DNA from: Terriglobia bacterium
GTDB taxonomy: Bacteria > Acidobacteriota > Terriglobia > Terriglobales > Acidobacteriaceae
Reading direction: 5' to 3'
Length of the DNA stretch: 38,717 nucleotides
Assembly (NCBI GenBank): GCA_021324365.1
Contig: JAJPJE010000124.1
Location: forward strand, 1 to 38,717
The translations under genes and the position numbers were made by a program. This document shows positions 1 through 10,782 of this stretch, in pieces (the first letter of the stretch is position 1; each line of letters starts with the position of its first letter). The notes beneath the pieces were generated by a model that was given only the letters and a program-made list of their open reading frames with translations, had not been told where the DNA came from and searched no databases.

Positions 1-425
1 AGCGGTGCGAGTTCGAGGCTGGGGAACCGTATCCACGCGGCAGTAACCGGTTGTGACTGGCCGCCTTGCAGGTTGAGACGACGAAGAGGAAGGGTGTTGG
101 TGGAAGGCGTGATGCTCAAGTCGATGTCAAGAAGGCCGTGCAGGTCCGGGCGAAGTTTGCCGTTTATACTCCAATCGACGCCAGTCACTTTGACGTTCAA
201 TTCGCATTGCTCGCCCGCATTGACCTGAAGGATCTGCGCCTCGTGTGTGCGCCACTCCTTATCGCAGACGATCTCGTAAGAAACGAATAACGGCTGGGCA
301 GGCTCCTGGATGGAGACGACTTTTCCGCGCAGCAGGTGATAGTCCCGCTTTTGCCGCAACTCGAAGTATTCAGTTCCGCCTGTCAGCAGATTACGCCACA
401 CGATCGCGCGCTCGAGGTGGTCCAT
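1..425 (-). CDS. Putative glycolipid-binding family protein (COG3554/PF06475-like), 3' end cut by window
   Basis: Reading leftwards from an ATG at 425 the frame stays open to the window edge for 141 codons, so the C-terminus lies outside. AGGAG sits about 9 bases before the ATG. The protein starts MDHLERAIVWRNL and contains YEIVCDKEW near residue 52 and a late TPSTNTLPLRRLNL motif. This matches my memory of the putative glycolipid-binding family, which has a conserved YEV-CD-W pattern and a DVDL..TP.TNTLP.RRL block near its C-terminus. The family forms a beta-barrel-like fold; its cellular role is not established. About 50 residues should be missing relative to the family's usual length of near 190. 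No partner gene is visible; the next gene on the same strand begins 125 bases upstream. The family assignment is by motif recall. Confidence 0.75.
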   Translation of the reverse strand, partial: MDHLERAIVWRNLLTGGTEYFELRQKRDYHLLRGKVVSIQEPAQPLFVSYEIVCDKEWRTHEAQILQVNAGEQCELNVKVTGVDWSINGKLRPDLHGLLDIDLSITPSTNTLPLRRLNLQGGQSQPVTAAWIRFPSLELAP

Positions 426-550
426 GCTCTTCCGCTCCTGCGATCAGATTATCGTGACCCGAAATTGGAGGGCTGTGAGGAGGAATACAAGGTAGTGGTT
501 GGTGAGTATTGGTCAGTGGCTGTGGCTTACCACCAATCACTAACAGCTAG

Positions 551-1156
551 TCACTTCTTAGGCCTGGCCACCAGCTTCACGCGTCCCTGCTTCAGTTCGA
601 CTTGGTATTCCACGGCATCGCAGGAATACTGTTTCCGGATCTGCTGCGTCTTCTTCATGACAAAGTCACGAAAGGCGTCGTAGTTGGTCGCCTCGCCGGC
701 ATCGGACGCATTCTTCTTGGCATTGGACAGGGCTGAGTATAGTGATTTCAGATGTTCCTGCTCTTTGGCTGGATCGGAAACGGCAACCCTAAATGGCTTA
801 TCGAGTGTTGCGACTTTGTGCTTCAACTCGTTACCGGCAGCATGTTCCTGTTCGGTACGCAAACCCTGGATACCCAGAACGGCATCCTGCGAGCGGCGAT
901 ACCCCTCTTCCTTGATTTTGGCCTTCTGGCGCCATAAATCGCTGAAAACTGCATATTTCTGCTGGATAGCGTTGAAGCGGAAGCGCTGGGCGACGCTGAG
1001 CCGCTGGGAGTCGCTGAACTTTTTTAGCAGAGACTGAACACGCCACTCCAGGTCTGTAGGCGGCCGTTTCGAGCCCCCTCCAAAGAAGATGTCGTATTCG
1101 ATTTTTAACCGGCGCAGCGCGTCATCTAGCTGCCCAATTTCTTCATCAACCGTCAA
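551..1156 (-). CDS. Conserved coiled protein, resembles MXAN_5187 C-terminal domain family
   Basis: A 201-residue soluble, charged, mostly helical protein without signal peptide or membrane segment. Residues about 8-90 (LDDALRRLKIEYDIFFGG, then QRFRFNAIQQKYAVFSDLW) resemble the C-terminal domain of the myxobacterial MXAN_5187 family, with its LK..YE..F, RFRFQ...Y..Y...W pattern. The function of that family is unknown to me. The start is TTG at 1156; a GGAG seven bases upstream supports it and there is no better ATG. It is transcribed away from the response regulator at 1315, and the 158-base gap between them should hold both promoters. The C-terminal third (FRDFVMKKTQQIRKQYSCD) is basic and could form an alpha/beta unit. 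Gene reality is strong; the family name is tentative. Confidence 0.8.
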   Translation of the reverse strand: MTVDEEIGQLDDALRRLKIEYDIFFGGGSKRPPTDLEWRVQSLLKKFSDSQRLSVAQRFRFNAIQQKYAVFSDLWRQKAKIKEEGYRRSQDAVLGIQGLRTEQEHAAGNELKHKVATLDKPFRVAVSDPAKEQEHLKSLYSALSNAKKNASDAGEATNYDAFRDFVMKKTQQIRKQYSCDAVEYQVELKQGRVKLVARPKK

Positions 1157-1314
1157 AGCGCACTCCGGATTTGCGCCTCTGGGAGGCGATAGCCCGGACT
1201 ATAGCACGGCTTTCCAACTTCCTTTGCAAACCCGGTAGCACTTTAGTCACATCTCACCACTAGTTCTCCCGACTTGCTTCGTGACTGCCGTAGGGTGCGG
1301 GTGACACTATAAAC

Positions 1315-1965
1315 GTGCCGGAGAAGATCCAAATCGTTGTTGCTGACGACCACGCGGTTCTGCGCGAGTCATTAGCTGCATTGCTGGCCACACATCCTGA
1401 TTTTGAGGTTTCTGGCAAAGCGGCCAATGGCACCGAAGCCCTCAGGTTAGTCCAGGAAACGCATCCGCACGTCCTGCTGCTCGATCTCTTTATGCCGGAG
1501 GAAAGCGGGTTCGACGTTCTGCGCGTTCTTGATCGGGAAGGAAACCGAGTAGCCGCCGTCGTACTAACCGGGTCCGAAAGCCATTCGGATTACCTGCAGG
1601 TAGTTCGATTGGGTGCCCGAGGTCTGGTTTTGAAAAGCGACGATCTGGAGCACCTGTTTTCAGCCATCCGCGCCGTCGCTGCCGGGGAACTCTGGTTTCC
1701 GCCCGAGATTGCCCAACAGGTCCTGACCGCCATGGCCGGTGAAACCAGGCAGCAGCCCACTTCCATTCAACGCCTGTCAGAGCGGGAACGCCAGATCGCA
1801 GGGCTGGTCGCCTCAGGGTTGCGCAATCGTGACATCGCTGAACACCTGAAGATCAGCGAGAACACGGTCAAGCGTCACCTGCAGAGCATCTTCGATAAAA
1901 CCGGCGCCCGTGATCGCCTGGAATTGGCCGTAATGGCGCTCGGAGAGTTGGACAGAGCCGCCTGA
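1315..1965 (+). CDS. NarL/FixJ-type two-component response regulator
   Basis: This 216-residue protein has an N-terminal receiver domain and a C-terminal LuxR-type helix-turn-helix. In the receiver, D11-D12 form the acidic pocket, D57 in LLLDLFMP is the phosphoacceptor, T85 follows in VVLTG and K107 is the conserved lysine. Residues about 152-208 (LSERERQIAGLVASG, NRDIAEHLKISENTVKRH) form the DNA-binding domain. It is therefore a phosphorylation-dependent transcription regulator. The start is GTG at 1315 without a clear Shine-Dalgarno sequence. No histidine kinase is in the window, so it is an orphan here and its signal and targets cannot be inferred. It converges on the MoeZ-like gene, with stops only 10 bases apart and no terminator between. 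Confidence 0.93.
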   Translation: MPEKIQIVVADDHAVLRESLAALLATHPDFEVSGKAANGTEALRLVQETHPHVLLLDLFMPEESGFDVLRVLDREGNRVAAVVLTGSESHSDYLQVVRLGARGLVLKSDDLEHLFSAIRAVAAGELWFPPEIAQQVLTAMAGETRQQPTSIQRLSERERQIAGLVASGLRNRDIAEHLKISENTVKRHLQSIFDKTGARDRLELAVMALGELDRAA

Positions 1966-1974
1966 CGATTCCAG

Positions 1975-3144
1975 CTAGTACTTCGGCACCTTAGGGTCGA
2001 CCTTGTCTGCCCAGGCATTGATACCACCGGTTAAATTCTTCACCTTCGTAAATCCGGACTGCCGCAGAAAATCCACAGCCTTGGCACTACGCCCCCCCAT
2101 TTTGCAATGGACGATCATCTCCCGGCTGGGATCGAGTTCATTCACGCGCTTAGGAAGATCATTCAACGGAATCAGGTATCCTCCGAGGTTGCAAATCTGA
2201 TATTCGTGCGGCTCGCGCACGTCGAGCAGAAACGGCTCGTTCCCCGCGTCGCGAAGTTGCTTTAATTCTTCCACGGTGATGCTGGGCATCTGCGTTTCCA
2301 CTGGCTTCTCTTCTCCTCGTATTCCGCAAAATTCGTTGTAATCGATCAGCTTCTTCAAAGTCGGATGCGTCCCGCACGCTGGGCAGTCCGGATTCTTCCG
2401 CAGCTTCAATTCGCGGAAGCGCATCGCCAGAGCATCAACCAGCAACAAGCGTCCGATCAGCGGCTCGCCTGCACCGAGAATCAGCTTGATGGCTTCCGTC
2501 GCCTGCATCACGCCAACCAGGCCCGGGAGAATCCCCAGCACTCCGCCTTCGGCACACGAAGGCACCAATCCAGGCGGCGGTGGCTCCGGATAAAGACAGC
2601 GATAGCACGGTCCTTCTTTCGTTGCGAAGATACTCATCTGTCCTTCAAAACGGAAAATGGATCCGTAGACATTTGGTATGCCGGTCAGTACGCAGGCGTC
2701 GTTCACCAGGTAACGCGTGGGGAAATTGTCGGTACCATCGACCACCATGTCGAAGTCACGGAACAACTCTAATGCATTCGCGCTGGAAAGCTTGGTATCG
2801 AACCTTACGATGTTGACGTTGGGATTGATTGCCCGCAGTTTGTCAGCAGCCGAATCAAGCTTCTTGCGACCTACATCGGCGGTGGTGTGGATGATCTGCC
2901 GCTGCAGGTTGGTGAAATCGACGACATCGAAATCAACTACGCCGAGTGTGCCGACACCGGCCGCTGCCAAATACAAGGCCAGCGGGGAACCGAGTCCACC
3001 CGCGCCAACACACAACACTCTCGCGGCTTTAAGCTTGAGCTGTCCTTCCATGCCGACCTCGGGCATGATCAAGTGGCGTGAGTAGCGGAGGACTTCATCA
3101 TTGCTAAGAGCTACAGCGGGTTTTGTTTCAGTAAGAGTTGCCAT
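1975..3144 (-). CDS. moeZ: MoeZ-like sulfur-carrier adenylyltransferase/sulfurtransferase (ThiF/MoeB + rhodanese)
   Basis: The 389-residue protein fuses an E1-like ThiF/MoeB domain (about 12-262) to a C-terminal rhodanese domain (about 287-385). The first has the nucleotide-binding GAGGLGS at 48-53, the DGTDNFPTR block near 136-144 and two zinc-binding pairs, C180/C183 (CYRC) and C254/C257 (CPAC). The rhodanese has its active cysteine C347 in VHCKMGGRS. Enzymes of this type adenylate the C-terminal Gly-Gly of a ubiquitin-fold carrier (MoaD, ThiS, CysO) and convert it to a thiocarboxylate. Mycobacterial MoeZ has the same domain order. It is the last gene of the minus-strand run cysM-mec-cysO-moeZ, so its nearest substrate is the CysO-like protein 86 bases upstream. 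It could also serve MoaD, because moaC and moeA lie elsewhere in the window. Confidence 0.92.
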   Translation of the reverse strand: MATLTETKPAVALSNDEVLRYSRHLIMPEVGMEGQLKLKAARVLCVGAGGLGSPLALYLAAAGVGTLGVVDFDVVDFTNLQRQIIHTTADVGRKKLDSAADKLRAINPNVNIVRFDTKLSSANALELFRDFDMVVDGTDNFPTRYLVNDACVLTGIPNVYGSIFRFEGQMSIFATKEGPCYRCLYPEPPPPGLVPSCAEGGVLGILPGLVGVMQATEAIKLILGAGEPLIGRLLLVDALAMRFRELKLRKNPDCPACGTHPTLKKLIDYNEFCGIRGEEKPVETQMPSITVEELKQLRDAGNEPFLLDVREPHEYQICNLGGYLIPLNDLPKRVNELDPSREMIVHCKMGGRSAKAVDFLRQSGFTKVKNLTGGINAWADKVDPKVPKY

Positions 3145-3164
3145 ATGTCTCTCGGTTGAGTGAT

Positions 3165-3245
3165 CGGGCGATCGAGCCGTCGAGTCATTTCAAAGCAAAC
3201 GGCATTCTCAATGATGCGATGACTCAATGACTAAATGACTCGATC
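3165..3245. repeat. Spacer simple-sequence repeat with inverted TCGAGTCATTT copies
   Basis: The spacer between the cysO-like and moeZ-like genes is made of imperfect iterations of gatcgagtcatt and its complement. TCGAGTCATTT occurs at 3180-3190 and again inverted at 3233-3243, so an 11-base-pair stem could form around a 42-base loop that itself contains tgatgcgatgactcaatgact. The inverted copy overlaps the last codons and the stop of the cysO-like gene. The same 11-mer is present at 38518-38528. This looks like a dispersed intergenic element and not a protein operator, but no function can be shown. Confidence 0.6.
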
Positions 3246-3518
3246 GTCCTTCCCTCCGGCGATCGAGGGCACAATCGACAGTGTGTCCGACTGGCCTACC
3301 GGGGTGTTCTCCTTCTCCATATAACGAATGTCTTCATCGTTGAGATATAGGTTGACGAAAGCGCGCAGCTTGCCTTCTTCGTTGTAGAGATGCTTTTTCA
3401 AATCCGGATGCGAAATCGTGAGATTCTTAAGCGCCTCGCCAACCGTGGTTCCGGGAACCTCGACGCTGTCCTTCTTGCCCGCATATTGCCGCAGCGGAGT
3501 CGGAATTAATACCTTCAT
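3231..3518 (-). CDS. cysO: CysO/MoaD/ThiS-family sulfur carrier protein with C-terminal extension after Gly-Gly
   Basis: A 95-residue ubiquitin-fold carrier. It starts MKVLIPTPLRQYAGKK and has the family's late LSIVPSIAGG block, with the diglycine at residues 88-89. In this family the terminal glycine is adenylated and turned into a thiocarboxylate that donates sulfur. Here the chain does not end at the diglycine but continues with KDDRVI. Those codons coincide with the spacer repeat next to the gene. The neighbouring JAMM peptidase is the obvious candidate to trim them, as known for some related carriers. GGAG eight bases before the ATG supports the start. Upstream neighbours are the JAMM protease and CysM-like synthase; downstream is the MoeZ-like activator. 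The gene set favours cysteine synthesis over molybdopterin synthesis, though MoaD use is not excluded. Confidence 0.88.
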   Translation of the reverse strand: MKVLIPTPLRQYAGKKDSVEVPGTTVGEALKNLTISHPDLKKHLYNEEGKLRAFVNLYLNDEDIRYMEKENTPVGQSDTLSIVPSIAGGKDDRVI

Positions 3519-3565
3519 TCAGTCTCTCCAATCAAAATGTCTCAAAACCCATTCAGTCGCCGCAC

Positions 3566-4081
3566 TTATTTGTCGGAACCGGGAACCTCAGCTGGCGGCA
3601 TGGATGCCTGCGCTGATAACGGTACATCGCTCTTCTGCGCAACAGCTACGAACGTAATTGGCTCGTCTTCGAAGTGCTTGTCTTCTTCTTCGGTGCCGCG
3701 CAACCAAAAGGAATTCGTGTCCACGGCCCGCGCCTTATCCACGCGGGTGATTACATAGGAGCAGCCGATCCAGTGCGCCTCCGCAAAGTCGGTCTTCGAC
3801 CACTGCGCCGGGCAGTCCGGATGCGAATGGTAGAACCCCACTATATCCAATCCCTGCTCTCGCCCCTGCCGCTGGATGCGAACCAGGTCGCGAGGATCGA
3901 TGTAGAAGCGATCCTGCGGGCGGTCTTCGCGAGTGTTATGGCACCGGACGGTCGAGCTCACAATCCGATGATCGCCTTCTTCGTTCATCGTCCCCAGCAG
4001 TACGCCGCAGCACTCGTCGGGATACGTCTCCTCGCCATGGCGCCTGATTTCCTCGTAATCCGATTGTTTGAACTCAAGCAT
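3566..4081 (-). CDS. mec: Mec-like JAMM/Mov34 metallopeptidase
   Basis: A 171-residue single-domain JAB1/MPN protein. The zinc site is complete: E23 in YPDECCG, then H85-S-H87 and D98 in FYHSHPDCPAQWSKTD, which is the JAMM pattern. In mycobacteria the homologue Mec+ releases cysteine from the CysO-cysteine adduct made by CysM; in other carriers such enzymes trim residues beyond Gly-Gly. Both activities would fit here. I chose the ATG at 4081, five bases after the stop of the CysM-like gene; the longer frame upstream only runs antiparallel in codon sense through cysM and has no family resemblance. The last 30 or so residues (Ala/Pro/Ser-rich) look like a disordered tail. Tight spacing indicates cotranscription. 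Confidence 0.92.
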   Translation of the reverse strand: MLEFKQSDYEEIRRHGEETYPDECCGVLLGTMNEEGDHRIVSSTVRCHNTREDRPQDRFYIDPRDLVRIQRQGREQGLDIVGFYHSHPDCPAQWSKTDFAEAHWIGCSYVITRVDKARAVDTNSFWLRGTEEEDKHFEDEPITFVAVAQKSDVPLSAQASMPPAEVPGSDK

Positions 4082-4086
4082 GATTC

Positions 4087-5073
4087 TTAAATACCGCCAC
4101 CCGAGACCAGGGTCTCTTCCTGCCAAAACCTCTCGCTGAGATATTTGTCTGCACCGTCGGGCATCACCATCACAATGGCCGCGCTCTGACCGGCGGCCGC
4201 CAGCGGGCGAGCAATCTTCAACGCGCCTGCCAGAGCTGCACCGGCCGAGACCCCCACCAGTAGCCCCTCTTCCCTCGCCAGGCGCTTTACCATCCAATGA
4301 GCTTGTTCTGTCGAGATCCCCAGATTTTCGTCCGCTATTGCAGGATCATAAATGGGAGGGACAATCGCTGTCGCCATATGCTTGGCGCCCTCGATGCCAT
4401 GGAACGGAGAATCCGGCTGCAGTGAGATACAACGAATCTTCGGATTCAGTTCCTTCAATCTCCGGCTGGTGCCCACGAACGTCCCGCTGGTCCCCAGCAT
4501 AGCGACGAAGTGAGTCACCCTCTCCGCCGTCTGTTCCCATATCTCGTTCGCAGTTCCACGATAGTGAGCCCGCCAGTTCGCTTCATTTCCATACTGATTG
4601 GCATAAAAGTATGTCTCGGGGTTGGCGGCATGCAACTCGCGCGCCTTGCGCAGTGCGCCATCAGAGCCTTCGGCCGGATCGGTGTAGATGATCTCCACTC
4701 CGTAGGCATTCAGGATGTGTTTGCGCTCTGGAGAAGCATTCTCAGGAACGCACAATGTGACACCGAAGCCCTCAGCAGCGCCGATCATGGCGTAGGCGAT
4801 GCCGGTGTTGCCGCTGGTAGAATCCAGTAGCCGCTGGCCAGGCTTGAATTGGCCCAACGATCTGCCGTTGCGCACGATGTTGGCAGCGGCGCGATCTTTC
4901 ACCGAACCGCCTGGATTAAACCATTCCGCTTTTGCCAGCAACTCGACTCCGGGGTACTCCTGACCGATGCGCTCAAGCCGCAACAGCGGCGTATTGCCGA
5001 TTGTTTGCAGCAGCTTGGATCCAAGCTTTCGAGCAGGTACAACGATCTCGGCGTGTTTTTGAGCAACTTGCAT
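4087..5073 (-). CDS. cysM: PLP-dependent cysteine synthase, CysM/CysK family
   Basis: A fold-type II PLP enzyme of 328 residues from the ATG at 5073. NPGGSVKDR carries the PLP lysine (residue 59), STSGNTG near 85-91 is the phosphate/substrate loop, and GTSGTFVGTSRRL follows. The region FVPELYDP-like (IVPPIYDP here) near residue 237 resembles mycobacterial CysM, which uses O-phosphoserine and the thiocarboxylated carrier CysO. That context (JAMM peptidase, carrier, MoeZ-like E1 directly downstream) makes the CysO-dependent reaction the best guess; use of O-acetylserine and sulfide is the alternative. A TTG at 5115 in the same frame would add 14 residues, but I see no ribosome site for it and prefer ATG. 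First gene of the four-gene run. Confidence 0.92.
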   Translation of the reverse strand: MQVAQKHAEIVVPARKLGSKLLQTIGNTPLLRLERIGQEYPGVELLAKAEWFNPGGSVKDRAAANIVRNGRSLGQFKPGQRLLDSTSGNTGIAYAMIGAAEGFGVTLCVPENASPERKHILNAYGVEIIYTDPAEGSDGALRKARELHAANPETYFYANQYGNEANWRAHYRGTANEIWEQTAERVTHFVAMLGTSGTFVGTSRRLKELNPKIRCISLQPDSPFHGIEGAKHMATAIVPPIYDPAIADENLGISTEQAHWMVKRLAREEGLLVGVSAGAALAGALKIARPLAAAGQSAAIVMVMPDGADKYLSERFWQEETLVSGGGI

Positions 5074-5380
5074 GAAATCGGATTGCCGGAACCCCACGTG
5101 TCCGGCTTCTGTCAAAAGACTACTGAAAGTTGCGTGCTGGCATCAACTTTTAGGTTTTTCGCTGCTGGCCGAAACGCCGGTACACGATTTTCCTTGCCTT
5201 AATGGATGCCTCTGAAGCGCCACAAGCGTCAAATTGTGCAGGCACTTAACCCCGGAAGGCTTGCCCTGAGTCCTTCATGTTACGTTCGGGAGATCACTGA
5301 TGGCAGTTGGCACAGTATCCGGGTACAAGGTCATCATGTTATGGTTTGGTAGGAATTCCGGCTAAAGGTTAATCCGACAA

Positions 5381-5848
5381 ATGGCAAAGCAAATCGCCAC
5401 TCACACCTACGAAGACGCTGTTTCCTGGCTGAAAGATCATGGCTTCGACATCCTCGAAGCTCCCGGCGTGCAGAACCGTGTTTTCGTAAAAAAGAACAAT
5501 TGTTCTGCAGCCATCGAGGCCACTCCCGATGGCGGTGTGAAGATCTTTGCTTATCCCGGCGTGCTGATCGGCGGTGAAATTTCCAAGCTGGTCAACAAGG
5601 GCTACCAGCAATTCCTCAAGACCACTAAAACGGAGGTAGCGGCAACCGCCGACCACCTCAAGACTTTGCATCAGTTCACTGAAGAGTTGAAAGAAGCCAT
5701 CGGCGCAACCAGCCTCTACAACGAATCTCTGGGCACCGTCAGCGAGAACTACCATTACGATCGCGTCAAGGATCGTGAAGAGCCTGTTACCCAACGGCCT
5801 AAGCGTCCATGGGAAGCTAAGCGAACGCCAAAAGCCAAGCGCGCTTAG
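5381..5848 (+). CDS. Conserved hypothetical protein
   Basis: A 155-residue protein I do not recognise beyond a likely acidobacterial conserved hypothetical. It begins MAKQIATHTYEDAVSWLKDHG and the first 85 residues look like a compact alpha/beta fold (an amphipathic helix, then strands around VFVKKNN, AAIEATPDGG and VKIFAYPGVLIGGE). Residues about 85-110 form a helix (TADHLKTLHQFTEELKEAIG). The tail, ending RPKRPWEAKRTPKAKRA, is very basic and could bind nucleic acid. There is no signal peptide. AAAGG lies about 10 bases before the ATG. Its stop overlaps the stop of the convergent UDP-glucose dehydrogenase gene by four bases. The 265 bases upstream contain no gene I can support. Confidence 0.8.
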   Translation: MAKQIATHTYEDAVSWLKDHGFDILEAPGVQNRVFVKKNNCSAAIEATPDGGVKIFAYPGVLIGGEISKLVNKGYQQFLKTTKTEVAATADHLKTLHQFTEELKEAIGATSLYNESLGTVSENYHYDRVKDREEPVTQRPKRPWEAKRTPKAKRA

Positions 5849-7251
5849 CTCGCCTTGCGCAACTGCGGCATTTGCTCGGAATTCTCTTTCGGAAATGCCT
5901 CCGGCCGTCCCACGCTGTAATACATGAATCCGTTCTCTCCCATCATTTGGGGATCGTAGAGGTTACGCCCGTCGATCACGATGGGGTATTTCAGCGCGCG
6001 TCGCAGTCGAGGCAGGCTCAGAACCGCGAATTCTTCCCAATCGCTGAGCAGCAGCAGCGCATCCGCGTCTTCGGCGGCGTCATAGGCGCTCTCCGCGAAT
6101 GTCACTCTGTTGCCGAGTACCTCTCGCGACTTCACCATCGCCGCCGGATCGTAAGCCACTACTTCGCAACCCTCGCGAAGCAACAACTCGACCAGCGTTA
6201 TTGCCGGCGACTCACGCACATCGTCTGTTCCGCCTTTGAAGGCCAATCCCAGCACAGCCAGGCGCTTCCCCTTCAACGTCCACAATGCGCTTCGAACTTT
6301 GCGCAGGAAACGCAGGCACTGTTCTTCATTGATCCGGATCACCTCATCGAGCAGTCGGAAATCATACCCGGATTCGCGAGCCACAGCACGAAATGCCTTC
6401 AGGTCTTTGGGGAAGCACGATCCGCCATAGCCAATGCCGGGGCTAAGGAAGCGATCGCCAATGCGCGGATCGGAACCGATGCCGTCACAGACTTCCTCGA
6501 CGTTCGCTCCTACAGCCTCGCAGATGTTGCCCACAGCATTGATGAAAGAGATCTTCATCGCCAGGAACGCGTTCGAAGCATGCTTGATCAACTCGGCGCT
6601 CCGCGTGCTCGTGACAATCAGCCGGGCAGGAATTCGAGCCTGGTCGGGTTCCGGGATTGCATTCTCCCGCCGCGTATAAGACCCGTCGGTCAGCGGACGA
6701 TAGATCTCCTGCAAAAGGCATGCTGCACGTTTACTGTTTGCGCCAATCACGATTCGGTCGGGAAACAGGAAATCGCTAACCGCGGTTCCCTCACGTAGAA
6801 ATTCTGGATTCGAGGCCACTTCGAAGGCGTTCTCGGGAGCGCCATTCAGGACCATGATGCGGCGTACCCATTCGCTGGTACAAACAGGCACCGTGCTCTT
6901 CTGGACCACCAACTTGTATCCACTGACAGAGCGGGAAATTTCGCGAGCTACCACTTCCACATACGAGAGATCGCAGTCTCCATTGTCGGTGGACGGTGTT
7001 CCCACGGCGATGAAGATTACGGCGCTCTGTTGCACAGCTTGCGACAAGGATGAAGTGAATTTCAGCCGCTTGCCGCGGTGCCGTTCGAGCAACTCCGGCA
7101 AGAAGCGTTCGTGAATCGGTGTCTCCCCTCGCTCGAGCGCCGCGACTTTTGCTGTGTCGTTATCGACGCAAATGACCCAGTGCCCCAGTTCTGCGAAACA
7201 CGCCGAGGCGACCAATCCTACATACCCGGACCCCACAACTGTAACTTGCAT
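5845..7251 (-). CDS. ugd: UDP-glucose 6-dehydrogenase
   Basis: A 468-residue member of the UDP-glucose/GDP-mannose dehydrogenase family, which oxidises UDP-glucose to UDP-glucuronate with two NAD for polysaccharide precursors. The N-terminal Rossmann motif VVGSGYVGLV is at the very start, NPEFLREG follows near 148, and the catalytic cysteine C279 is in GYGGSCFPKDLKA. The C-terminal UDP-binding domain includes GLAFKGGTDDVRESPA. The ATG at 7251 puts the Rossmann strand at residue 2, as usual; an in-frame GTG at 7278 adds nine unconserved residues. A segment after IYRPLTDGSY (about 190-212) is a modest insertion compared with the E. coli type. It stands alone, so the polymer it feeds cannot be named. 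Confidence 0.95.
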   Translation of the reverse strand: MQVTVVGSGYVGLVASACFAELGHWVICVDNDTAKVAALERGETPIHERFLPELLERHRGKRLKFTSSLSQAVQQSAVIFIAVGTPSTDNGDCDLSYVEVVAREISRSVSGYKLVVQKSTVPVCTSEWVRRIMVLNGAPENAFEVASNPEFLREGTAVSDFLFPDRIVIGANSKRAACLLQEIYRPLTDGSYTRRENAIPEPDQARIPARLIVTSTRSAELIKHASNAFLAMKISFINAVGNICEAVGANVEEVCDGIGSDPRIGDRFLSPGIGYGGSCFPKDLKAFRAVARESGYDFRLLDEVIRINEEQCLRFLRKVRSALWTLKGKRLAVLGLAFKGGTDDVRESPAITLVELLLREGCEVVAYDPAAMVKSREVLGNRVTFAESAYDAAEDADALLLLSDWEEFAVLSLPRLRRALKYPIVIDGRNLYDPQMMGENGFMYYSVGRPEAFPKENSEQMPQLRKAS

Positions 7252-9810: not shown

Positions 9811-10782
9811 ATGAAGATTCGTACTTTGATGGTGCTTCCGCTCGCAGCCACCTTGATGGCCCCTGCGTTTGCGCAGCAAGCTCCCGCAAACAGCAGCCAG
9901 AGCCAGCCAGCGGCTGCCGCGTCCGAGTCCAGCTCGAATGCGGCCACCAGCTCTGATCAGAACACCTCGGCTCGCCAGCCGCTGGTGCCTGATACTCATG
10001 AGGGATTCTGGGGTCATCTGAACCCATTCGCTCGGAAGAAATATGTACAGCGCCAGATGTCACCGATTCGTGATCGCGTAAATGAACTTGACGAACTTAC
10101 CGCGTCAAATTCGAAGGCGATCAAGGACGTGGACGCGCGTGCGCAGGAAGGTATCCGCCAGGCTTCGGCGAAGGCCGACCAGGCTGATCAACACGCCGTC
10201 GATGCCGGCAACCGGGCCCAACAGGCACAGGCCACCGCAGATCAGGCAACGCAACATTTGCAGACAGTACAGCAGGCTGTCACCAACCTCGATCAGTACC
10301 AGCCCAGCACTGATGCCGAGCTTCGCTTCCGTCCGGGACAGAGCGTTCTGAGCACCAAGGCGAAAGAAGCGCTCGATCAGATCGCAGACTCGGTGAAGGA
10401 TCAGCGCGGCTACATCATTGAAGTCCAAGGCTTCGCTCCTGGAGCCAGCCAGGCCTCGATCGCGGCCTCGCAGAAGATGGCCGACTCGGTCGTCCGTTAC
10501 CTGGTAGTCGATCACCAGATTCCGGTCTACCGGATCTACACGCTAGGCATGGGCAATGCGAAGTTGACTCCTTCGGGCCAGACCCAGCAAACCGACGCCA
10601 ACGGCAAGCCAGTTCGTCCGTACCGTGGCGCTCGAGTCCAGGTCACCGTGCTGAAGAACAGCGGTGTGGAACAGCTGAATAACCAGGCAATGGCTACACC
10701 TGCCGGCACAATGAACGCTCCGGCAACCACCAATCAGGGCGCGCCGCAATCCTCCCCCAATACCCCGGCGCAGCCGCAGTAA
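9811..10782 (+). CDS. Exported OmpA-family protein with coiled-coil region
   Basis: A 323-residue protein with a clean signal peptide (MKIRTLMVLPLAATLMAPAFA). A disordered Ser/Ala/Gln-rich stretch follows (to about 60), then a helical region at about 85-160 with heptad-like Ala spacing (ASAKADQADQHAVDAG), and a C-terminal OmpA-like domain at about 165-285 (AELRFRPGQSVLSTKAKEAL, IIEVQGFAPG, then YRGARVQVTVL). OmpA domains bind peptidoglycan, so it probably tethers wall to outer membrane or acts as a periplasmic spacer. The tail after residue 290 is Asn/Pro/Gln-rich. GGAGG nine bases before the ATG is a strong ribosome site. It ends before a strong terminator, so it is monocistronic. The usual basic peptidoglycan-contact residues are not all obvious. 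Confidence 0.9.
   Translation: MKIRTLMVLPLAATLMAPAFAQQAPANSSQSQPAAAASESSSNAATSSDQNTSARQPLVPDTHEGFWGHLNPFARKKYVQRQMSPIRDRVNELDELTASNSKAIKDVDARAQEGIRQASAKADQADQHAVDAGNRAQQAQATADQATQHLQTVQQAVTNLDQYQPSTDAELRFRPGQSVLSTKAKEALDQIADSVKDQRGYIIEVQGFAPGASQASIAASQKMADSVVRYLVVDHQIPVYRIYTLGMGNAKLTPSGQTQQTDANGKPVRPYRGARVQVTVLKNSGVEQLNNQAMATPAGTMNAPATTNQGAPQSSPNTPAQPQ

Follow-up and report, generated by a model that had tools for sequence, protein, structure and literature searches.

In Mycobacterium tuberculosis, CysO, Mec+, CysM and MoeZ form a pathway for the synthesis of cysteine. In this CysO-dependent synthesis, CysM acts with the carrier thiocarboxylate and O-phosphoserine, and the Mec activity releases cysteine from carrier-Gly-Gly-Cys. 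For the removal of a carrier tail, the HcyS/HcyD pair of Wolinella provides a precedent. Carriers may also be synthesized with residues following the Gly-Gly: according to a passage of PMC6006322, a protease, for instance QbsD, is required by such capped carriers, and PtmS2 and PtmS3 end in GG-MV and GG-C. In Deinococcus radiodurans, a MoaD-MoaE fusion is cleaved by DRJAMM, according to a passage of PMC8832034. An operon comprising E1-rhodanese, JAB, cysteine synthase and ThiS/MoaD genes was listed in 2006, for Acidobacteria (Susi) among others, in row 4c of PMC1779556.

The window, i.e. the whole stretch of 38,717 nucleotides of DNA that was analysed, contains four consecutive minus-strand genes encoding members of the same four protein families as the M. 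tuberculosis pathway:

1975-3144, minus strand: E1-like ThiF + rhodanese adenylyltransferase/sulfurtransferase of the MoeZ/MoeB type (Pfam ThiF 1.5e-85, Rhodanese 7.3e-16)
3145-3230, minus strand: spacer of 86 nt between the carrier stop and the E1 start
3231-3518, minus strand: sulfur-carrier gene (ThiS/MoaD fold, CysO-like), 95 aa, ending AGG-KDDRVI-stop
3566-4081, minus strand: JAMM/MPN+ metallopeptidase (Prok-JAB), 171 aa, motif HSHPDCPAQWSKTD (Pfam Prok-JAB 1.1e-24)
4087-5073, minus strand: cysteine synthase B-like PLP enzyme of the CysM type (Pfam PALP 2.1e-67)

The carrier matched Pfam ThiS (3.1e-12) over residues 3-89 and scored 59.4 bits with the NCBIfam SAMP1 model, slightly under the cut-off of 60. 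Its PDB relatives were 4n6e_B, 1v8c_A and 3dwg_C, and its closest named relatives belonged to the Acidobacteriota. The JAMM protein scored 83.2 bits with the NCBIfam desampylase model, under its cut-off of 130; its AlphaFold2 model (mean pLDDT of 92) gave as best Foldseek matches 2kcq, 2kks, and Pyrococcus JAMM1 alone and with SAMP2, 5lda being among the matches. The CysM-type enzyme, a putative CysM by family match, scored 323 bits with TIGR01138, under its cut-off of 394.2, and had as PDB relatives 2v03 and 3dwg_A, the 3dwg entry thus containing relatives of both this enzyme and the carrier. For the E1-like protein, the best NCBIfam models were PRK07411 and PRK07878 (MoeZ), neither of which reached its cut-off, and PRK08762 and PRK05690 (MoeB) were above theirs. 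Scans for sigma-70 promoters and terminators (positions 1900-5500) gave no excess over shuffled sequences.

The M. tuberculosis CysO ends at its Gly-Gly, the 3dwg_C match extending to the last of 93 residues, whereas the window gene encodes a tail of six residues. Like QbsE/QbsD, PtmS2/PtmS1 and similar capped carriers, the locus has both residues after the Gly-Gly and a JAMM gene in the cluster.

The carrier tail and the dispersed repeat

As indicated in the preliminary description, the open reading frame at 3231-3518 ends with Gly-Gly followed by KDDRVI, the complete terminus being ...DTLSIVPSIAGG-KDDRVI-stop, i.e. ...SIVPSIAGG and six further residues. The ThiS domain stops at residue 89, the second glycine, and the six tail residues are therefore outside the domain. 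The AlphaFold2 model of the carrier had a mean pLDDT of 87, with values below 50 for residues 88-95 (Gly-Gly and tail), the tail being disordered in this predicted structure. The preliminary description had also equated the tail codons with the simple sequence of the adjacent spacer, and this was borne out, mostly in the form of an inverted copy. The relevant features are as follows:

3231-3251, minus strand: tail codons AAG GAC GAT CGA GTC ATT and stop codon TAG, directly after the Gly-Gly
3226-3249: inverted-repeat arm at the tail, which takes in the stop codon and all tail codons except the first two bases of Lys
3166-3189: partner arm within the spacer
3207-3241: period-8 repeat CTCAATGA (TRF score of 42, 4.4 copies, 70% matches)

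The inverted repeat is imperfect, with arms of 24 nt that are 79% complementary and a perfect 11-nt core, TCGAGTCATTT; the Lys codon contributes its last base only. The tail resembled its own spacer beyond expectation (p = 0.015; 0.01 for the inverted match; 200 dinucleotide shuffles), and that spacer ranked first among the spacers of 42 loci. Thus, the proposal that the repeat had invaded the 3' end of the gene holds to the extent that the tail is largely repeat-derived here; the need for trimming, as developed below, was not created by the repeat.

The period-8 repeat is related to an octamer dispersed in the window's genome. With up to 2 mismatches, the octamer GAGTCATTNAGTCATT was found at 30 sites of this genome (4.44 Mb), versus 6 for the reversed control pattern, and formed five plus/minus pairs spaced by 45-121 nt. 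Dispersed octamer repeats (GAGTCATT) were present on contigs C7, C41, C56, C58, C78, C111 and others of this genome (G000; loci L185-L198), several of them as inverted pairs. Fourteen stretches carrying octamer copies were compared by eye, without gene calling, to open frames of at least 80 codons: the copies seemingly occupy the gaps between open frames or the 3' ends of frames, and in a few cases apparently provide stop codons or last residues (e.g. ...KPLTH-stop and ...ILLH-stop). The octamer is like REP-like dispersed palindromes in forming short inverted repeats present in many copies. REP-like palindromes are fixed, in contrast to the degenerate, period-8 arms of the window. A second palindrome, suspected by eye at positions 440-600 of the window, was not confirmed on testing.

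Carrier termini and JAMM genes in relatives

A carrier search in 150 relatives, a set from which the window's own genus was absent, gave a match in 125. Loci with their flanks were chosen from the best score downward (110 loci from 108 genomes), and 108 loci were scored, the window included. Outside the 108 are L146, whose carrier frame has only 13 residues before a stop, and L157, in which the Gly-Gly was missed by the search pattern and a tail, AGVCRAMCCCAGAHTRPRRYR, was seen by eye. In L146 (genome G007), homology continues past the stop of the carrier frame, indicating either that the gene is disrupted or that the sequence contains an error. Loci L247 (tail CCPLAACCCR) and L248 (E1 fusion) enter no count, and no tail count includes L031-L057, since GGK is the end of one of the patterns used to fetch that set.

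In the 108 scored loci, the Gly-Gly was followed by 1-29 residues in 88 (median of 5.5), by a second domain in 18 and by nothing in 2 (L023 and L122, both with a JAMM gene). Seventeen of the 18 run-on carriers continued into E1 (two were cut by the contig end) and one into a cupin. The latter carrier frame (L142), of 214 aa, has its cupin domain after the Gly-Gly (Pfam Cupin_2 3.6e-14). In the carrier-E1 fusions (L011, L028, L086, L113, L116, L118, L132, L143, L144, L147, L154, L155, L156, L159, L160, L162 and L164), the carrier is joined in frame to E1 and the Gly-Gly is therefore internal. A JAMM match was found upstream in 17 of 17, and the one fusion checked with Pfam (L028) had the domain order ThiS-ThiF-rhodanese. 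The fusion state changed at least 9 times on a tree of 102 E1 proteins, which was built by a quick method and had 26 starred branches among its 99 inner ones. These fusions are like the D. radiodurans MoaD-MoaE protein, in which a carrier joined in frame to its partner enzyme is freed by a JAMM enzyme, an activity described in PMC8832034 for D. radiodurans and proposed here for Acidobacteria. The two systems differ by the partner, MoaE being involved in molybdenum cofactor synthesis, and by the repeated changes of the acidobacterial fusion state.

The distribution of tails bears on the origin of the one in the window. Invasion of a normal, Gly-Gly-terminal carrier by the repeat, creating a new trimming step in this lineage, would account for the match between the tail codons and the spacer repeat, and for a repeat that is dispersed in the genome and seems, by eye, to border on, or to form, the ends of other open frames. 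Such a maturation step, 'created here by a repeat' according to the preliminary description, does not agree with the state of the relatives: 105 of the 107 other scored loci already have a tail or a fusion, including the two nearest to the window on the tree, L007 (tail R-stop) and L002 (tail KEELCKLINKNALFDS-stop). This explanation is largely refuted, and we hold it to be very improbable. The presence of a tail or a fusion in nearly all scored loci indicates that the tail is an old property of this carrier clade, although the relatives share ancestry and the 106 loci of 108 are not independent events. As a tail, that of the window is commonplace in the clade; it is unusual in that a visible repeat is read into the carrier.

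Tail sequence appears to turn over fast, though not everywhere. The preliminary description had raised the prospect of KDDRVI-type tails conserved independently of the spacer, which were seen in none of the 107 other scored loci. The converse expectation, that the extensions of relatives follow the local spacer, was found to hold for a portion of the loci: counting the window, 10 of 42 testable tails resembled their own spacer at p<0.05 and 7 at p<0.01, which exceeds expectation, and the remaining 32 had no significant match. In comparison with the spacers of the other loci, the own spacer ranked first for 5 of 42 tails (1 expected). The spacer repeats themselves vary by locus (L005, L008, L015, L103 and others). 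Two groups of tails were conserved, with a C[IV]CS ending common to 6 loci of family f5 and SVAAARC common to 3 loci of genus g82. The f5 tails (L020, L026, L029, L096, L112 and L129) end with CICS-stop or CVCS-stop, and possibly correspond to a REP-like element read into the carrier. In L020 and L096, a GC-rich inverted stretch was seen by eye directly after the stop, the fold z of L096 being -6.8. Locus L111 (genome G006) has a tail, AGVSSTSEGSTASVIPSGARDPGFCL, beginning with VIPSGARDPG, which seemingly derives from a different dispersed element (by eye).

The palindromic character of some spacers raised the possibility that the tail or its hairpin is a functional RNA element tuning E1 expression, the residues being a by-product. 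The predicted fold of the window spacer is a long stem, which is unusual as RNA to a modest degree only (z of -1.7, 11 of 200 shuffles folding equally well; z of -2.6 for a slightly longer stretch, 30 shuffles), and strongly palindromic spacers were found in L096, L015, L103, L010 and L005 (z of -4.2 to -6.8). As a general device of the spacers, the hairpin was rejected: the mean z of the spacers (-0.37, n=79) resembled that of equal-length E1 coding sequence (-0.45, n=78). Against an RNA element stand also the octamers, often in inverted pairs, at other sites of the genome, and the outcome of an Rfam search of window positions 1-6000, which gave no match. We therefore regard a functional RNA element as unlikely.

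In 35 aligned carriers, the two glycines were nearly invariant and the residues after them differed. Proline occupied the first tail position in 0 of 106 cases, versus 53 of 716 at later positions (Fisher p of 0.001; for fusions, only the 11 next residues were counted), the 106 first residues not being independent events owing to shared ancestry. Absence of proline at this position is as expected if a peptidase were to cut after the Gly-Gly.

In 95 of the 110 loci, a JAMM gene was present on the carrier's strand, no more than 700 nt upstream of the carrier; it was elsewhere in the fetched locus in 3 and elsewhere in the genome in 12, each of the 108 source genomes having a JAMM match. The metal-binding motif HxHx7SxxD was intact in 97 of 98 JAMM proteins. 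Trimming by the neighbouring JAMM peptidase, as advanced in the preliminary description, is thus supported by comparison only, and the enzyme would be a likely candidate for this role. Distant carriers (29-40% identity) without a JAMM, E1 or CysM match in their flanks ended at the Gly-Gly in 26 of 27 cases (L058-L084). Among paralogous acidobacterial carriers, 12 of 18 taken from a longer list ended at the Gly-Gly. Of these 18, 15 lacked a JAMM match in the fetched flank, and 5 of them had tails; the other 3 adjoined a JAMM gene, and 2 of them ended at the Gly-Gly. This mixed result indicates that a JAMM neighbour and a tail do not strictly go together. GGK tails were also seen in nine more paralogs (L049-L057) with no JAMM gene in the fetched flank, a set that is biased since one search pattern contained GGK.

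Proposed maturation of the carrier

From the tails, the repeat match, the gene neighbours, the intact JAMM site and the lack of proline at the first tail position, we infer cleavage, the order of cleavage and the chemistry of the pathway. Our best reading, to which we assign a probability of roughly 0.77, is that the protein is a capped carrier of the CysO/Mec/CysM/MoeZ type, matured by the JAMM peptidase, and that the end of its gene drifts into neighbouring sequence, repeats included. The four genes would form an acidobacterial cysteine-synthesis operon (CysM, Mec-like JAMM, CysO and MoeZ types) in which the carrier would be produced with a cap after its Gly-Gly. This cap would be cut off by the JAMM peptidase, E1 would then adenylate and thiolate the freed glycine, and the sulfur would pass to the CysM substrate. 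The same JAMM enzyme would release cysteine from carrier-Gly-Gly-Cys, the window JAMM being the proposed enzyme for both trimming and carrier-Cys hydrolysis. Since the bond in carrier-Gly-Gly-Cys is of the same kind as that in carrier-Gly-Gly-Lys or any tail, there would be a simple reason for tails to be tolerated. As a Mec enzyme, the JAMM protein would be there even without any trimming role.

Because the peptidase must in any case cut after the Gly-Gly, the end of the carrier gene would be little constrained, barring proline after the glycines. Stop codons would drift, and the tail would often be whatever the spacer holds. In the window, this would be one arm of the dispersed octamer palindrome; elsewhere, it would be other repeats, the whole of E1, or selected sequence such as the poly-cysteine peptides described below. 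The sequence of events set out in the preliminary description, a repeat and therefore trimming, is best reversed in this reading: trimming came first and repeats were then let in. The acidobacterial caps, of up to 29 residues or a whole enzyme, differ in size from the QbsE/PtmS-type caps, of one or two residues (C, MV) in the passage of PMC6006322, and also in that they differ between most of the genera sampled.

An alternative is that the tail stays in place, the carrier functioning without a free Gly-Gly or housekeeping proteases clipping a minor population only. The existence of some tailed paralogs without a JAMM gene next door is in its favour. It is difficult to reconcile with the 17 relatives in which the carrier is fused to E1 itself, with the near invariance of the two glycines in the 35 aligned carriers in spite of differing residues after them, and with the lack of proline directly after the glycines; retention of the tail thus appears quite improbable. 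Maturation of a capped carrier by JAMM leads to a testable rule: where a dedicated peptidase finishes the C-terminus, the 3' end of the gene would be released from constraint and could come to include repeats, leader peptides or the gene that follows. The relatives constitute a natural library of approximately 100 different tails for one JAMM family.

Poly-cysteine peptides between carrier and E1

Tails and spacers of relatives were searched for poly-cysteine peptides, defined as an open frame between the Gly-Gly and E1 containing at least 4 cysteines in 8 residues. Eighty-seven loci were tested (86 unfused loci and the fusion L155; L024, L025, L119 and L137 were excluded as too short or lacking E1). 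A poly-cysteine frame was present in 22 of the 87 loci. The reverse strand gave 1 of 87, and 100 dinucleotide shuffles averaged 0.33, with no shuffle exceeding 2. The peptide was fused to the carrier in ten loci (L009, L017, L018, L087, L104, L109, L114, L128, L161 and L163), examples being CCWYCCCR and SGRMADCACSCCCCR. In the twelve others (L012, L019, L021, L088, L089, L095, L097, L098, L099, L106, L127 and L138), it was encoded by a separate micro-ORF, e.g. MARTSQYRPACGCCCCCMCCCR. The poly-cysteine state changed at least 13 times on the E1 tree, fusions excluded. In the window, the operon and the region upstream of cysM contain no poly-cysteine peptide; seven six-frame matches occur elsewhere, all at position 10,254 or beyond.

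An ATG was located at -5 to +9 nt of the carrier stop in 22 of 90 unfused loci, starting E1 in 9 cases, a poly-cysteine micro-ORF in 10 and other short frames in 3. For 7 of these 10 micro-ORFs, the ATG was 9-10 nt past the Gly-Gly codons, whose GGNGG sequence could act as a ribosome-binding site. The peptide would either be an extension of the carrier or begin at the carrier stop, with the Gly-Gly codons directing initiation. In all 18 loci with a definable frame, the first TGYTGYTGY run of the spacer coincided with the translated frame (1 in 3 expected by chance; p of 2.6e-9 if loci are independent), one more case lacking an ATG. The peptide, rather than a DNA repeat, therefore appears to be selected, and a mere (TGT)n repeat was ruled out by this test.

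In mycobacteria, polycysteine short ORFs have been described whose runs of Cys codons are believed to make the regulation of the downstream gene depend on cysteine supply (Canestrari 2020, as cited in a passage of PMC9094748); a passage of PMC13236596 also treats these ORFs. The mycobacterial ORFs are called leaderless in the title given there for Canestrari 2020, whereas the acidobacterial peptides are encoded inside an operon, adjoining the carrier gene or fused to it. Among the matches listed in the open-access literature, we found no report of poly-cysteine peptides in Acidobacteria. Their location within a cysteine operon suggests a cysteine-sensing leader like the mycobacterial ORFs, and the peptide may sense the cysteine supply, which would amount to a cysteine sensor built into a cysteine-synthesis operon. 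Because JAMM would cut everything after the Gly-Gly, the discarded tail could serve as a parking place for regulatory or accidental sequence, with the poly-cysteine peptide of many relatives reporting on the supply of cysteine-tRNA and tuning the E1 gene, and, in the window's lineage, with the octamer palindrome parked there. We consider this extension possible, although somewhat short of probable.

A simple RNA switch, in which a stalled ribosome would free the Shine-Dalgarno sequence of E1, was unsupported, the effect being above that of a random mask in 8 of 22 loci with a mean change of -0.008. The CCCR-stop ending was also considered as a genome-wide family: 53 matches were found in 90 family genomes, 8 of them at the carrier locus, versus 101 for the reversed control, and this gives no sign of a wider family. 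A cysteine-rich tail of 28 residues, SSSCLNALGASLCSCCSYCGRENCLCDI, was observed in a paralogous carrier (L245, genome G072) that has no JAMM match in its flank.
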